From assembly GCF_000195575.1 (NCBI RefSeq), contig NC_015391.1, positions 1,232,501 to 1,296,500 of the forward strand: a stretch of 64,000 nucleotides of DNA, in the 5' to 3' direction. Made by a program: the position numbers and the translations under genes. This DNA is from Carnobacterium sp. 17-4 (GTDB taxonomy: Bacteria > Bacillota > Bacilli > Lactobacillales > Carnobacteriaceae). The notes beneath the pieces were generated by a model. The model was not told the DNA's origin, did not search any database, and saw only the letters and a program-made list of their open reading frames with translations. Below are positions 33,017 to 43,983 of the stretch, in pieces; the first letter of the stretch is position 1; every line of letters starts with the position of its first letter.

Positions 33017-33213
33017 GTATTTCCCTTCTTTCATGATCGATTAGTTGAATCGATTCTATTTAACTTTTTAACTAAATCAGCCTTAATCGTGCTGTATTTA
33101 TCAGTATACCATTTTTTTATTAAAAATGGTTAGTAGAAAGTTGGATACAAATAGTTGCATATTAAGAATAAAAAAAGATACAATAACTATTGGAAACTCT
33201 AGGAGGGAAACAA

Positions 33214-33912
33214 ATGGAATGGAATTACCAAGGAGATAGAGGTCCAGGCAATTGGAAAACCATTTGTTCGGCCTTTTATCAAGCAGAAACAGAAAGTTTG
33301 CAATCGCCAATCGCATTAGATGATAATCAAGCAAACTTAACTATCTCACAGTATTCACTGAGATTTGATTACAATAGAACGTTATTTGAATCATCGTTTT
33401 TTAACCATACGGTTCATTTATCGCCAAAAACAAATGAAAAAGTAAACTTTGTTACCTTTAAGCATAAAAAATATTTTTTAGAAGATCTTCATTTTCATTT
33501 GCCAAGTGAGCATGAAATTAACCAAGAATCTTTTCCATTAGAATTTCATTTGGTGCACCGTTCTGTGAAAAATGATCTTCTCGTTGTAGGAGTCACTGTA
33601 TTGCCTTCAGAACGCCCGATGAATACTACATTAGCAGCAATAGATGAGAAGGCTTTACATCCGCGTATCGCGGAAAGAGGCTTGACTGTTCCAATCGAAT
33701 TGTCCCGTCTATTGCCAGAAAAAAAACAGTTTTATCATTATACTGGATCATTAACCACACCTCCAACGTCAGGCCCAGTAGATTGGATTGTGTTCCGGCA
33801 CCAAACATATATGAGACAAGGTTTACTCCAAGCATTTAAACGAAATGTTGGGAAAACAAATAGACCACTACAACCTAGATCAGACAGACCGATCTATTTA
33901 TCAGATTGTTAA
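33214..33912 (+). CDS. Alpha-class carbonic anhydrase, cytoplasmic form
   Basis: 232 residues interconverting CO2 and bicarbonate. Zinc ligands are the two His of HFHLPSEHEI and the His in LEFHLVH; the substrate pocket is YTGSLTTPPTSGPVDWIVF, and QSPIALDD is typical of the N-terminus. Unlike many alpha-type enzymes there is no signal peptide. ATG 33214 follows AGGAGGGAAACAA. Being next to the pyr operon, it may help supply bicarbonate for carbamoyl phosphate, but it has its own transcription unit. Confidence 0.92.
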   Translation: MEWNYQGDRGPGNWKTICSAFYQAETESLQSPIALDDNQANLTISQYSLRFDYNRTLFESSFFNHTVHLSPKTNEKVNFVTFKHKKYFLEDLHFHLPSEHEINQESFPLEFHLVHRSVKNDLLVVGVTVLPSERPMNTTLAAIDEKALHPRIAERGLTVPIELSRLLPEKKQFYHYTGSLTTPPTSGPVDWIVFRHQTYMRQGLLQAFKRNVGKTNRPLQPRSDRPIYLSDC

Positions 33913-33939
33913 TTGTTCATGTAATTCTCATTTTATTGC

Positions 33940-33968
33940 TTGACACGTCACTATACAACTAGTAAGAT
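33940..33968 (+). promoter_or_regulatory. trpXYZ leader promoter
   Basis: TTGACA (33940-33945), 17 bp spacer, TAAGAT (33963-33968). It drives a leader of about 370 nt before trpX. Confidence 0.7.
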
Positions 33969-34003
33969 TGTCGTAATAGAAAAACAGCAAAGGAGTTCTC
34001 AGG

Positions 34004-34066
34004 ATGCTAAATAACTTATCTTATAATGGACAATTGAATAGCAGTTGGCAAAGCCAAGATAGATAG
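34004..34066 (+). CDS. 20-codon leader peptide upstream of trpXYZ
   Basis: AGGAG sits 8 bp before an ATG that opens MLNNLSYNGQLNSSWQSQDR and a TAG. The one Trp codon (34046-34048) lies in the 5' arm of the hairpin TTGGC-AAA-GCCAA (34045-34057). The stop codon lies in a segment that can pair with 34119-34130. This layout resembles ribosome-mediated attenuation, although a single Trp codon is fewer than in classical trp leaders. Confidence 0.5.
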   Translation: MLNNLSYNGQLNSSWQSQDR

Positions 34067-34252
34067 GTTGATCCATGAGAACGCTCATAGATGCAACCTT
34101 CAGTGTACTGAATGTATGTATCTATGTTGGTTTATTTGAAGACAGGCTAGACTTCCAATCCACGTAGAGAGAATACTTAATTCTATTTCTATGTGGATTT
34201 TGTTTTGCATAAAAACAGCTTCCACGGATTATTTGTGGCAGCTGTTTTTTTA
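34045..34252 (+). promoter_or_regulatory. Structured leader RNA with tandem terminators (putative attenuator)
   Basis: Predicted pairings: P1, 34054-34065 with 34119-34130 (11 of 12 pairs). P2, AGGTTG...CATGAG with CTCAT...CAACCT (34065-34099). P3, TTCAG/CTGAA (about 34099-34112). Together they form a three-way junction. Two terminators follow: 34157-34207 (AATCCACGTAGA / TCTATGTGGATT, T-rich tail) and 34214-34252 (AACAGCT.CCAC / GTGG.AGCTGTT, seven T). An alternative pairing of CATAGAT (34086-34092) with ATCTATG (34120-34126) could switch states. No T-box motif is present. Confidence 0.6.
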
Positions 34253-34347
34253 TTTTGATTACTGGGGTGTGTACAATGGAAATGAAACGATGGCGCTTTT
34301 GTTGGTAAGGCTAAATAAAATTTAATCATTATTGGAGGATGAAGGAA

Positions 34348-35325
34348 ATGAAAAAAATGATTGGCTTCATTATTTGTTTAGTAGCACTTTTAACGGTTGC
34401 TTTTTTTACTACTAAAACTGAAACAGTTACAAAAAAGGAAAAACCGATGGTTGGTATTCTACAACTGACAAGTCATCCAGCTCTTGACCTCATTTATAAA
34501 GGAATTGTAGATGAGCTAAACGATGCGGGTTATATTGACGGGGAAACGATGACATTGGATTTTCAAAATGCTCAAGGTGACCAAAGCAACTTAAATTCGA
34601 TGAGTACTCGATTTGTTAGTAGAGGAGCTGATGTGATGGTCGGTATAGCAACTCCTTCGGCTCAAGCATTAGCGAACAGCTCTCAAGATATTCCTATCGT
34701 ATTAGGTGCTGTTACGGATCCTGAGGGCTCTGGTTTAGTCAAAAGCAATGAAGCTCCTGGTGGGAACATTACAGGGGTGAGTGACCTAACACCCATTAAA
34801 GAACAATTTTCCTTGATCAAGGAAATTCTACCAGAAGCTCAAACAATCGGTATTTTATATTCATCAAGTGAAGACAATTCAATTGTGCAAGCTGAACAAG
34901 CCATTGAGATTGCTGAAGAAATGGGATTGGATACTCAAGTCATGACGGTTTCTTCAACGAACGATGTTGCTCAGGTGGCATCTACCTTAGCTGCACAAGT
35001 TGACGCTATATGGGTTCCTACTGATAATACTATAGCTAGTGCAATGAACACATTAGTGTCCGCTGCAGATTCAAATCTGATTCCAGTTTTTCCAGCTGTA
35101 GATACTATGGTAGAAGAAGGCGGCTTAGCAACTGTTGGATTAGATCAATACGAATTAGGTCGTTTGACCGGTGAAATGGTAGTAGCCATTTTAAATGGTG
35201 ATACAAATCCTGCAACTACTCCTATTCGCTATCTCGATCAAGGGGATATCATCATCAATGAAGAAAAAGCTGAACAGCTTGGTCTTACTATTCCAACTCA
35301 GGTATTGGAAAAAGCCAAAGAATAG
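34348..35325 (+). CDS. trpX: TrpX-like ABC transporter substrate-binding protein
   Basis: 325 residues, an N-terminal membrane/signal segment (MIGFIICLVALLTVAFFTT) and a periplasmic-binding-protein fold of the COG2984 type: VGILQLTSHPALDLIYKGI, then TPSAQALANSSQDIPIVLGAVTDPEG. No lipobox Cys is visible. In streptococci the orthologous trpXYZ system is associated with tryptophan uptake. ATG 34348 is 9 bp after GGAGG; ATG 34339 overlaps that site. Likely controlled by the leader RNA upstream. Confidence 0.85.
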   Translation: MKKMIGFIICLVALLTVAFFTTKTETVTKKEKPMVGILQLTSHPALDLIYKGIVDELNDAGYIDGETMTLDFQNAQGDQSNLNSMSTRFVSRGADVMVGIATPSAQALANSSQDIPIVLGAVTDPEGSGLVKSNEAPGGNITGVSDLTPIKEQFSLIKEILPEAQTIGILYSSSEDNSIVQAEQAIEIAEEMGLDTQVMTVSSTNDVAQVASTLAAQVDAIWVPTDNTIASAMNTLVSAADSNLIPVFPAVDTMVEEGGLATVGLDQYELGRLTGEMVVAILNGDTNPATTPIRYLDQGDIIINEEKAEQLGLTIPTQVLEKAKE

Positions 35326-35353: not shown

Positions 35354-36244
35354 ATGGATTTAATTGTTACAGCAACAGCACAAGGATTATTGTGGGGCAT
35401 GATGGCTTTAGGCATATTCATTACTTATCGTATTTTAAATTTACCAGATATGACAGCAGAGGGTTCCTTTCCTTTAGGAGCTGCAGTATGTGCTCAACTT
35501 ATTATTTCAGGCGTTCATCCTTTAATTGCAACCGCCATTGCCTTCGTCATAGGAGCTTTGGCTGGAGCAGTTACCGGGTTTCTTATTACAAAAGCTCATA
35601 TTCCTGGATTATTAGCAGGAATATTAACAATGACTGGTTTATATTCTATTAATTTGCGTATCATGAAACGAGCTAACTTGAGTTTACTTGGAGAGGCTAG
35701 ATTAACCGATTTCTTTACTGGATTTAATCTACCTAGCCAATTTGATACGATTTTCTTAGGAATCATTCTTGTTTGTATCGTGATTACATTGTTGGTCTTA
35801 TTTTTCAAAACAGAATTGGGTCAAGCTGTTATCGCAACTGGTGATAATGAAAAAATGGCACGTTCATTGGGAATTTCTACCAATCAAACTAAAATACTCG
35901 GACTTATGCTTTCAAATGGACTGATTTCCGCTGCAGGAGCACTTATTGCTCAAGACAATGGTTATGCTGACATCAGTATGGGCATTGGGACAATCGTTAT
36001 CGGTCTAGCTTCAGTTATTATTGGTGAAGTGATTTTTGGAAATTTATCTTTTGTTAACCGTCTGATTTGTGTCATTTTAGGAGCGATTATTTATCGTTTT
36101 ATCATCATGTTCGTCTTACTGATCGGATTACAGCCAAATGATTTGAAACTTATTTCAGCAATCATTTTAGCTTTCTGTCTAGCATTACCAAGTATACGTA
36201 CAAAATATAATTTGAATTTCTTCCAAAAAAAGGAGTTGTTGTAA
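35354..36244 (+). CDS. trpY: TrpY-like ABC transporter permease
   Basis: 296-residue permease of the COG4120 family with about eight hydrophobic helices (GLLWGMMALGIFITYRILNLPD, then AGSFPLGAAV-type loop EGSFPLGAAVCAQ). It forms the membrane channel for TrpX/TrpZ. AATGGGGGAAATCAA precedes the ATG. It lies 28 bp after trpX and 1 bp before trpZ. Confidence 0.88.
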   Translation: MDLIVTATAQGLLWGMMALGIFITYRILNLPDMTAEGSFPLGAAVCAQLIISGVHPLIATAIAFVIGALAGAVTGFLITKAHIPGLLAGILTMTGLYSINLRIMKRANLSLLGEARLTDFFTGFNLPSQFDTIFLGIILVCIVITLLVLFFKTELGQAVIATGDNEKMARSLGISTNQTKILGLMLSNGLISAAGALIAQDNGYADISMGIGTIVIGLASVIIGEVIFGNLSFVNRLICVILGAIIYRFIIMFVLLIGLQPNDLKLISAIILAFCLALPSIRTKYNLNFFQKKELL

Positions 36245-36245
36245 G

Positions 36246-37064
36246 ATGACTACTAATACACCAGTTTTATCATTAAAAGGACTAACAAAACAATTCAATA
36301 AAGGAACACCTAATCAAAACACCGTGTTGAATGATTTAAACTTAGAAGTAAAAAAAGGTGATTTTATTACGATTATTGGTGGAAACGGAGCTGGGAAATC
36401 GACGTTGTTAAACAGCATTGCTGGTAATTTTATGATCGATAAAGGCTCTATCCTGTTGGGAGAGAAAGATTTAACTCCTTTGAAAGAAGAAAAACGTGCG
36501 GAATCAATTGGTCGTGTCTTTCAAGACCCTGTTATGGGAACAGCTCCTCGAATGACTGTAGGTGAAAATTTGGCTATTGCTTATCGTAGAGGAAAGAAAC
36601 GTTCTCTTCGAAAAGGAACATCGGATAAGGAGCGAGAGTACTTTAAACAGGTCTTAGCTGAATTAGGCTTAGGTTTAGAAAATCGTTTGGATAGCGAAAT
36701 GGGATTACTGTCTGGTGGTCAACGCCAATCTATTGCACTGTTAATGGCAACGATGAATAAACCAGAACTTTTATTATTAGATGAGCATACAGCAGCGTTA
36801 GATCCCAAAACAGCAAAAGTTGTTTTAGAACTGACTAAAAGACGAATTGAGCAAGAAGAATTGACAGCTCTGATGATCACACATAATATGAACGATGCGT
36901 TAAAATATGGCAATCGATTAATTATGCTAGATGGTGGAAAAGTGATCGTTGATTTATCTGGAGAAGAAAAAAAGAGCTTAACCGTTCCAGATGTACTGGT
37001 TCTTTTTCAAACAGCCACAGACTCTAATAGTCAATTATCGGATGAACTTTTATTAAGTCGTTAA
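36246..37064 (+). CDS. trpZ: TrpZ-like ABC transporter ATP-binding protein
   Basis: 272 residues with Walker A GGNGAGKST (about 42-50), signature LSGGQRQSIALLMA, Walker B LLLLDEHTAALD and switch His in MITHNM. Energises the TrpXY transporter. It is followed by a terminator at 37097. Confidence 0.9.
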   Translation: MTTNTPVLSLKGLTKQFNKGTPNQNTVLNDLNLEVKKGDFITIIGGNGAGKSTLLNSIAGNFMIDKGSILLGEKDLTPLKEEKRAESIGRVFQDPVMGTAPRMTVGENLAIAYRRGKKRSLRKGTSDKEREYFKQVLAELGLGLENRLDSEMGLLSGGQRQSIALLMATMNKPELLLLDEHTAALDPKTAKVVLELTKRRIEQEELTALMITHNMNDALKYGNRLIMLDGGKVIVDLSGEEKKSLTVPDVLVLFQTATDSNSQLSDELLLSR

Positions 37065-37214: not shown

Positions 37215-37660
37215 ATGGATAATCATCCTGAAATTCCAATACATTCGTTGATCCAACGTTTCACAAAATTTAGTCAAAGTTATGCTAAATTAGAAAAACA
37301 ATTACTTGCTAAACATAAGATAACTAAATCAGGATTCTTGATTATGTCTTTTATAAAAGATGAAAAAATAACCTTAAATGAATTGACCAACCATTCTGAA
37401 TTAGATAAATCAACTTTAAGTCGTCAAATTAAAGCATTAGAAAAAAAGGGTTTATTTTAAAGGAACAAGGAATCGACAAAAGAGTTAGTCAACTCTCAGT
37501 AACTCCTGAAGCACGACAATTGCTTTTAATGGTTTCATTTGAACTTGAGAAAGCATACAGTACTATTTTTAAAAGCTGGCCTGATGATGAAAAACAACTT
37601 TTACTTGTTTTAATGGGCAGGGTCAATCGAAGCATTCAATCTTTCCAAGTAGAAAAGTAG
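37215..37660 (+). pseudogene. MarR-family regulator with a frameshift
   Basis: The first frame gives 81 residues up to the recognition helix (LNELTNHSELDKSTLSRQIKALEKKGLF) and stops. The remainder of the wing and the C-terminal dimerisation helix (LKEQGIDKRVSQLSVTPEARQ..., ending FQVEK) continues in the next frame to 37660. Adding one T to the four-T run at 37455-37458 restores a roughly 148-residue MarR protein. It could be a real inactivation or a base-calling error. Confidence 0.85.
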
Positions 37661-43413: not shown

Positions 43414-43470
43414 TAAAGGGATTTAAAACGAACAAACGTTTCGTCTTCATTTTATTTTTGTTTTCGCCTA

Positions 43471-43479
43471 TGGTATAAT
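43471..43479 (+). promoter_or_regulatory. Extended -10 promoter of the toxin mRNA
   Basis: TGGTATAAT is an extended -10 without a clear -35. It would give a roughly 90 nt leader before the small toxin ORF, as is usual for type I toxin mRNAs. Confidence 0.5.
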
Positions 43480-43573
43480 TTAAAACGTAGAAAAGTTTAA
43501 GGCGGTGGCTAACTCTTGTAAAATGGGGTGATGCCAATGTTTTTGTTTGGGCTTTCCCTAGAAAGGAAAACTC

Positions 43574-43654
43574 ATGAGCATTTATGAGGCACTGATGTTT
43601 GCATTAGCTTTTGCAACTCTTGTTTTAAAAATCTCGTCAAACAAAAAAAAGTAA
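43574..43654 (+). CDS. Putative holin-like type I toxin peptide
   Basis: 26 residues, MSIYEALMFALAFATLVLKI then SSNKKK: one membrane helix and a basic tail. It matches the form of the 'putative holin-like toxin' family (Hol_Tox; M-S-x-Y/F-E-A-L-M start), relatives of TxpA/BsrG. AAAGGAAAA lies 5-7 bp before the ATG. The 3' end of its mRNA overlaps a convergent antisense RNA. An overlapping 16-codon frame (MFLFGLSLER...) lies upstream. Expected effect on overproduction is membrane damage; inferred from the family. Confidence 0.65.
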   Translation: MSIYEALMFALAFATLVLKISSNKKK

Positions 43655-43768
43655 CCGTCTAAGCTTTAGCGAGTAGGACGATTACTTTTTGTATTATGTT
43701 CTATAGTAGCTGCCGTCTTTAACGGTTCTATTCTAAAGAGGGGTATGTTGACGCATATCTCTCTTTTC
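43643..43768 (-). ncRNA. Candidate antisense antitoxin RNA
   Basis: The minus strand has TTGAAA (43803-43798), a 17 bp spacer and TAAACT (43780-43775). Transcription from about 43768 would end at the hairpin AGTAATCGTC / GACGGTTACT with eight T at 43650-43643. The roughly 125 nt RNA would be complementary to the 3' end of the toxin mRNA, the arrangement seen in txpA/ratA and bsrG/SR4. The hairpin also terminates the toxin mRNA. No ORF is found in it. Confidence 0.55.
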
Positions 43769-43983
43769 ATGTATAGTTTAGCATGGATCTTTTACTTTTT
43801 CAATTAAAATCACTATTCAAGCCTTATTACAAACTAAATTACAAACTAACAAAAAAATGAAAAAACGAAATAGAATAGTAATGCTAGCTTAACGTAATTA
43901 ATCCAATTCAATGGTATACTAGCTTAAGAAGTTTTCAAAAAATAAAAACAGAATAAATCATTTCAAAGATTGGGGAATTACGT

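Follow-up and report, generated by a model that had tools for sequence, protein, structure and literature searches.

In the enterobacterial trpL attenuator a short upstream open reading frame (uORF) carries Trp codons, and a ribosome stalled at these codons favours an antiterminator. The leader described here resembles trpL in its Trp-codon uORF and in the antiterminator that a stalled ribosome would favour, but it has another sequence, an added step before and after in the pairing chain, and two terminators that are predicted to be switched together. Leader-peptide attenuators with a uORF carrying a run of His codons, an antiterminator and a terminator before his genes have been predicted in Firmicutes; the accessible parts of these reports describe them per gene and per lineage, for his genes only, and report no scaffold shared across amino acids (PMC2965389, PMC9413887). 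In S. suis, trpXYZ is controlled by an experimentally tested T-box and induced at low Trp (PMC9382623). That T-box serves the same operon as our leader, but it reads tRNA by its specifier loop, has no uORF and is unrelated in sequence. Finally, Narunsky et al. (2024, PMC11109978, SRC-39-1) published the trpB motif (RF04312), of which more than 900 instances are known from Firmicutes and Fusobacteria, and proposed it as a strong candidate for a riboswitch; they describe a terminator, place an antiterminator within the right shoulder of the P1 hairpin, and left a classic attenuator possible.

We report on the leader upstream of trpX in Carnobacterium sp. 17-4, analysed in a window of 64,000 nucleotides (contig NC_015391.1, positions 1,232,501 to 1,296,500). 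Our data make it very probable that this leader is a ribosome-mediated transcription attenuator in which a leader peptide serves to sense charged tRNA-Trp. Moreover, we consider it likely that one scaffold, present in Lactobacillales and in a second class of Firmicutes, is recoded for Trp, Phe/Tyr, His and Leu via the codons of the uORF with matching changes in the pairing strands, that a chain of pairings switches two terminators together, and that the first hairpin of many Phe/Tyr leaders serves solely to pass on the signal. The mechanism class is already known, while the superfamily and the layout are apparently new; in a search of mainly open-access literature we did not find the superfamily described as leader-peptide attenuators, and an earlier report may exist.

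Layout of the trpX leader and its surroundings

Within the 380 bases upstream of trpX we find a promoter-like site, a Shine-Dalgarno (SD) sequence, a 20-codon ORF, mutually exclusive helices and two terminators (Table 1). A sequence-only reading had placed a promoter, a uORF with a ribosome binding site, competing helices and tandem terminators before trpXYZ, and all of these were found where it had put them. Its claim that the uORF stop codon lies in one strand of a long-range helix was confirmed (34054-34065 with 34119-34130), and the competing pairing that it proposed (34086-34092 with 34120-34126) was recovered as 34084-34098 with 34118-34132. The TTGGC/GCCAA hairpin that it drew around the Trp codon is present at 34045-34057, but it is no feature of the family; leaders with two Trp codons read TGGCAAAACTGG. 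Three promoter-type matches were found in the region compared with 3.5 expected in shuffled sequences, which makes the promoter-like site weak evidence when taken alone. The leader RNA folds better than 100 of 100 dinucleotide shuffles (z = -5.0).

Table 1. Features of the trpX leader and operon in the window, and of the second leader in the same genome
Feature	Coordinates	Strand	Remarks
Sigma-70-type promoter-like site, TTGACA-N17-TAAGAT	33940-33968	+	10/12 matches
SD of the uORF, AAAGGAG	33989-33995	+	SD in 121/125 Trp-type homologues
Leader-peptide uORF, MLNNLSYNGQLNSSWQSQDR-stop	34004-34066	+	Frame test in homologues
Control Trp codon, sixth before stop	34046-34048	+	Position -6 in 88/122 Trp leaders
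Segment A (uORF end and stop)	34054-34066	+	Pairs with C
uORF stop TAG	34064-34066	+	
Segment A'	34066-34080	+	Would pair with B with the ribosome at the Trp codon; covered with the ribosome at the stop
Segment B (left shoulder of RF04312 P1)	34084-34098	+	Partner A' or C
Segment C (right shoulder of P1)	34118-34132	+	Partner A, B or D (C:D, antiterminator)
Terminator 1 (D:E)	34157-34199	+	-18 kcal/mol, then TTGTTTTG
Segment E with U-rich tail	34186-34207	+	Partner D (terminator 1) or F (relay)
Terminator 2 (F:G)	34211-34249	+	-18.8 kcal/mol, then TTATTTTG
Segment F (left arm and loop of terminator 2)	34211-34231	+	
trpX, tryptophan ABC transporter substrate-binding protein	34339-35325	+	NF041285 equivalog, 463 bits, cut-off 390
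trpY-like permease	35354-36244	+	PF02653
trpZ-like ATPase	36246-37064	+	PF00005
Second leader (locus L221), before a TrpX-like binding protein	G000:C2:651847-653071		Tyr/Phe-rich peptide MNNHLINQTQLNTFYFSYFRSCL-stop; first hairpin without U run

The start region of the uORF (33994-34006, GTTCTCAGGAT) can pair in this genus with 34072-34084 just past the stop (ATCCATGAGAAC), and in this way an untranslated leader might mask its own SD; by eye, such a pairing was not seen in other genera.

The start of trpX is probably the ATG at 34348 rather than that at 34339, since an SD (GGAGG) abuts the latter. Among named genomes the nearest trpX locus is that of C. jeotgali (88 % identical). A gene for a eukaryotic-type (alpha) carbonic anhydrase (33190-33912) adjoins the leader upstream on the same strand. 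Further downstream lies a MarR-like ORF (37215-37460) of just 81 amino acids, below the usual MarR length, which may be truncated or frameshifted. Rfam matches elsewhere in the window are the Listeria sRNA rli28 (43464-43647, + strand, 115 bits) and, adjoining it on the opposite strand, the RatA antitoxin RNA (43688-43780, - strand, 52 bits), together a possible type I toxin-antitoxin locus, and a PyrR binding site (RF00515, 21471-21601) barely over its cut-off.

Relatives of the leader and exchange of the uORF codons

In the leader, the Rfam scan proposed with the sequence-only reading gave no family at its own cut-off; with lax thresholds the best match of the leader was RF04312 (45.1 bits versus a cut-off of 59, E 2e-5). 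The alignment spans the full length of the model (positions 1-107 of 107) and takes in the P1 hairpin and the terminator that follows, with trpX next. As judged by sequence the leader is a homologue of RF04312, and not a curated member because 45.1 bits falls under the cut-off. The two are alike in the P1 hairpin, the antiterminator in its right shoulder, the first terminator and the type of downstream gene, whereas RF04312 was published without the uORF, segments A and A' and the second terminator.

In searches with E up to 0.01 or 0.001, where the upstream DNA was read for approximately 140 loci, RF04312 matched all 18 genomes of the family, 160 of the 295 in the order and 5 of the 398 in the phylum sample; two matches outside the order (L087 and L088) are without a uORF and were judged to be chance. 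A model built from seven non-Trp leaders (R1) matched 165 of the 295 genomes in the order, and also 15 of 78 around a genome (G651) that belongs to another class. Without any Carnobacteriaceae in its making, a covariance model recovered the leader at 34030-34145 with E = 3e-11 and gave the next match elsewhere in the window at E = 1.1, E-values that are rough, as for all models built in this analysis.

For the 80 trpX loci from named genomes that are closest to the query, a leader ORF was found by rule in 59 and in the printed sequence of 13 more, another gene lies directly upstream in 6, and at least one is ended by a contig edge. One of the 59 (L289) is doubtful by rule, and the covariance model places the element further upstream there. 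The genera represented among these loci include Enterococcus, Vagococcus, Trichococcus, Desemzia, Lacticaseibacillus, Secundilactobacillus, Limosilactobacillus, Ligilactobacillus and Latilactobacillus. A trpX without leader, with a different gene directly upstream and an altered operon layout, was seen in Lacticaseibacillus (L267, L269, L270, L271) and Agrilactobacillus (L313, L317). The sequence-only reading had noted that the T-box sequence is absent, and this held: 33900-34400 gave no match to RF00230 with a threshold as lax as E 10, and no T-box core motif was seen before the 80 related trpX genes. This argues against direct reading of uncharged tRNA-Trp by a T-box, as occurs at the same operon in S. 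suis (PMC9382623), and we assign such a reading a negligible probability, even with 18 T-box matches elsewhere in this genome.

A TGG codon lies upstream of P1 in all 125 Trp-type RF04312 hits and is in frame with an ATG and SD in 121 of them (control frames, 0 and 2 of 125), and the check on conservation of the leader ORF thus came out in its favour. The Trp peptides end in W-Q-N-W-R-R-stop or, with a single Trp, in W-Q-S-Q-D-R-stop (as in the window) or R-W-Q-S-R-stop, and their N-terminal parts are freely variable. A few RF04312 hits bear Y-F-S-Y-F-R-stop or H-H-N-H-H-R-stop in the same register. Specifically, on the shared scaffold WQNWRR-stop precedes trpX and trpB; YYFSYFR-stop precedes aroE, the DAHP synthase gene and a separate TrpX-like clade; HHNHHR-stop and HHHH precede hisZ and hisS; and LLLLANLR-stop precedes an NSS transporter gene.

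We matched codons to genes for 216 compiled leaders. Trp leaders precede genes for a TrpX-like binding protein (114) and trpB (5), and Phe/Tyr leaders, a tally that includes the spurious L087, precede aroE (34), TrpX-like genes (30), NSS transporter (13), permease (5) and DAHP synthase genes (3); His leaders precede hisZ (3) and hisS (2), and Leu leaders NSS transporter genes (3). HisZ, AroE, TrpB and the sodium-dependent transporter were checked against NCBIfam, and hisS, DAHP synthase and the permease were identified by reading the sequences. Leaders and genes may be co-inherited, such that these counts are non-independent events; independence applies at the level of the gene families, i.e. 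trpB, aroE, DAHP synthase, hisZ, hisS, NSS and the two TrpX clades. In the tree of TrpX-like proteins those with a W leader (114) and those with an F/Y leader (30) are split by a single branch (aLRT 100), compared with 27 changes in shuffles. The genome itself holds one TrpX-like operon per leader type: the window operon (W) and a paralogue (C2:652160), which at 348.7 bits is below the TrpX cut-off of 390 and whose leader ends in FYFSYFRSCL. That NSS genes stand behind differing codons is consistent with the B. cereus group, where NSS transporters are paired with Leu, Phe or Trp T-box specifiers (PMC2494555). Among the relatives of G651, outside the class of the window, there are Leu-rich leaders LLLLANLR-stop before NSS transporters (L216, L219, L220) and a His-rich leader LHHHHRKHL-stop before hisS (L213, L217).

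The exchange of codons bears on the proposal made for RF04312, namely a metabolite riboswitch that here would bind tryptophan or a related compound. The core of the leader matches that strong candidate (45.1 bits), and B, C and the intervening loop are well conserved. Against this, Trp, Phe/Tyr, His and Leu leaders all share this core, with the specificity sitting in the uORF codons; with four specificities on one core, the core cannot hold an amino-acid-specific pocket, and translation of the uORF would account for the switch without a ligand. A riboswitch is therefore highly unlikely in our view. Of the two options raised by the sequence-only reading, the undescribed riboswitch found no support, as the core is constant whichever amino acid the uORF codes for and matches a published family, and the ribosome-stalling attenuator is favoured by the comparative data.

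A second Rfam family, RF02863 (sRNA_2410, 'Enterococcus sRNA 2410'), has its entry among small RNA genes, whereas Phe/Tyr leaders on the same scaffold exceed its cut-off at two of the loci tested (L169 and L172, 70.7 and 66.8 versus 61); the trpX leader itself scores 17.8 bits, below 61. In the G651 group, the Phe and Leu leaders score just under the cut-off of RF04312. Because Phe/Tyr leaders match RF02863 and leaders of the G651 group come near the RF04312 cut-off, the two families appear to be parts of one superfamily. The scores above RF02863's cut-off could also speak for a trans-acting small RNA with its own terminators that lies before trpX by chance. This we regard as extremely improbable, in that the relatives directly precede amino-acid genes that fit their codons and a terminated leader would appear as a small RNA anyway. 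RF02863 rather seems to correspond to terminated leaders from Phe/Tyr attenuators (loci L169, L172, L221) that precede aromatic genes.

Competing helices, ribosome position and the second terminator

In 73 aligned leaders 95.8 % of the cells are paired for B:C, 84.5 % for A:C and 87.6 % for A':B, compared with 18-52 % for slid controls. Covariation, a check on which the sequence-only reading could have failed, was found for all three helices with scores above 500 of 500 shuffles. By eye, A:C is kept by unlike sequences, e.g. CTGGCGTAGATA/TATCTATGTTGG, GCCACATGGA/TCTATGTGG, GCCGGTA/TACCGGC and CCATCATAG/CTATGATGG. In an alignment-free test, where the own duplex of each leader was set against duplexes swapped between leaders, the own pairing prevailed for B:C (p = 1e-16), A:C (2e-16), C:D (6e-7) and E:F (1e-13). 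Since the control pairings C:F and A:D and the slid partners gave no signal, the relay is no by-product of composition.

Each leader was then folded to the end of D with a ribosome masking 13 bases from the first base of the A-site codon. Over 173 leaders, the mean equilibrium (not kinetic) probability of the antiterminator C:D was 0.58 with the ribosome at the first sensed codon, 0.23 at the stop and 0.18 with the ribosome absent (p = 2e-23). For the window the values are 0.61, 0.08 and 0.04 for C:D, and 0.02, 0.81 and 0.70 for B:C. Counted back from the stop, the computed read-through window spans codons -7 to -4 for Trp leaders and codons -9 to -2 for Phe/Tyr leaders, and both W and F/Y codons fall inside it; W stands at -6 in 88 and at -3 in 61 of 122 Trp leaders. 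In silico we thus see an SD and uORF, pathway-matched codons at the switch position and exclusive hairpins that depend on the ribosome. Some observations count against the attenuator. The Trp codon is the sole one in the uORF, the lowest-energy fold without a ribosome has B:C and a helix over the SD and not A:C, and some relatives failed the stall test (Leu L216, Phe L201 and L205, Trp L057).

The computed segments, covariation, codon placement, shift of pairing with ribosome position and E/F complementarity suggest a scheme in which we infer translation of the uORF, stalling, and a read-through that depends on Trp. When charged tRNA-Trp is short, the ribosome would wait at the Trp codon, cover the start of A and leave A' free; A' would pair with B and release C, C:D would block terminator 1, and with D occupied E would be free to form E:F, which would block terminator 2 and let trpXYZ be transcribed. 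The predicted ON state is A':B, C:D and E:F, and the OFF state B:C, D:E and F:G. When charged tRNA-Trp is plentiful, the ribosome would reach the stop and cover A', giving B:C and the tandem terminators. If the uORF is untranslated, C would be taken by B, or by A alongside A':B, and the operon would be off. With other codons on the same scaffold, leaders before Tyr/Phe, His and Leu genes would be expected to respond to the corresponding amino acids.

A ribosome that is kept at the stop yields the OFF fold here as well, as would be the case if free Trp stalled it near the uORF stop in a TnaC-like arrest; at high Trp A' would then stay covered and both terminators would form. The conserved C-terminus of the uORF, W-Q-x-(W)-R-R-stop, would fit such an arrest, and is also accounted for because A pairs with C. 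The N-terminal peptide parts vary freely, there is no Pro before the stop, and the codons change to YFSYFR, HHNHHR and LLLLANLR on the same scaffold, often in runs of four as for starvation codons, all of which makes the arrest unlikely compared with an attenuator that senses charged tRNA.

Two terminators are present in most Trp leaders. In the window the E:F duplex, which contains internal loops, reaches -13.6 kcal/mol versus -9.0 for swapped partners. Across the family the own pairing of E (with its U tract) and F beats swapped ones in 101 of 107 Trp leaders (p = 5e-16) and 65 of 77 Phe/Tyr leaders (p = 7e-12), with those few leaders excluded or handled that were mis-called by the terminator finder, which misses hairpins without a U run; the C:F control gave no advantage. 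In many Phe/Tyr leaders, including that of the paralogue in this genome, the first hairpin has no U run, and for this reason we can best account for it as a step that hands the signal over from C:D to E:F. The relay A':B / B:C / C:D / D:E / E:F / F:G, in which E:F would also govern terminator 2, is inferred from complementarity and is apparently new.

Meaning for amino-acid control in lactic acid bacteria

In lactic acid bacteria, attenuation in response to amino acids is usually ascribed to T-boxes; here a peptide-based system precedes the trp uptake genes in most of the sampled genera and is found before aromatic, his and leu genes as well. The codons of the uORF predict Phe/Tyr as substrate of a clade of TrpX-like transporters. 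Our data offer a testable function for a riboswitch candidate with more than 900 published examples and for a database small RNA, which would spare a hunt for a ligand. Finally, the leader would provide a natural case of one signal relayed via successive hairpins to two terminators.
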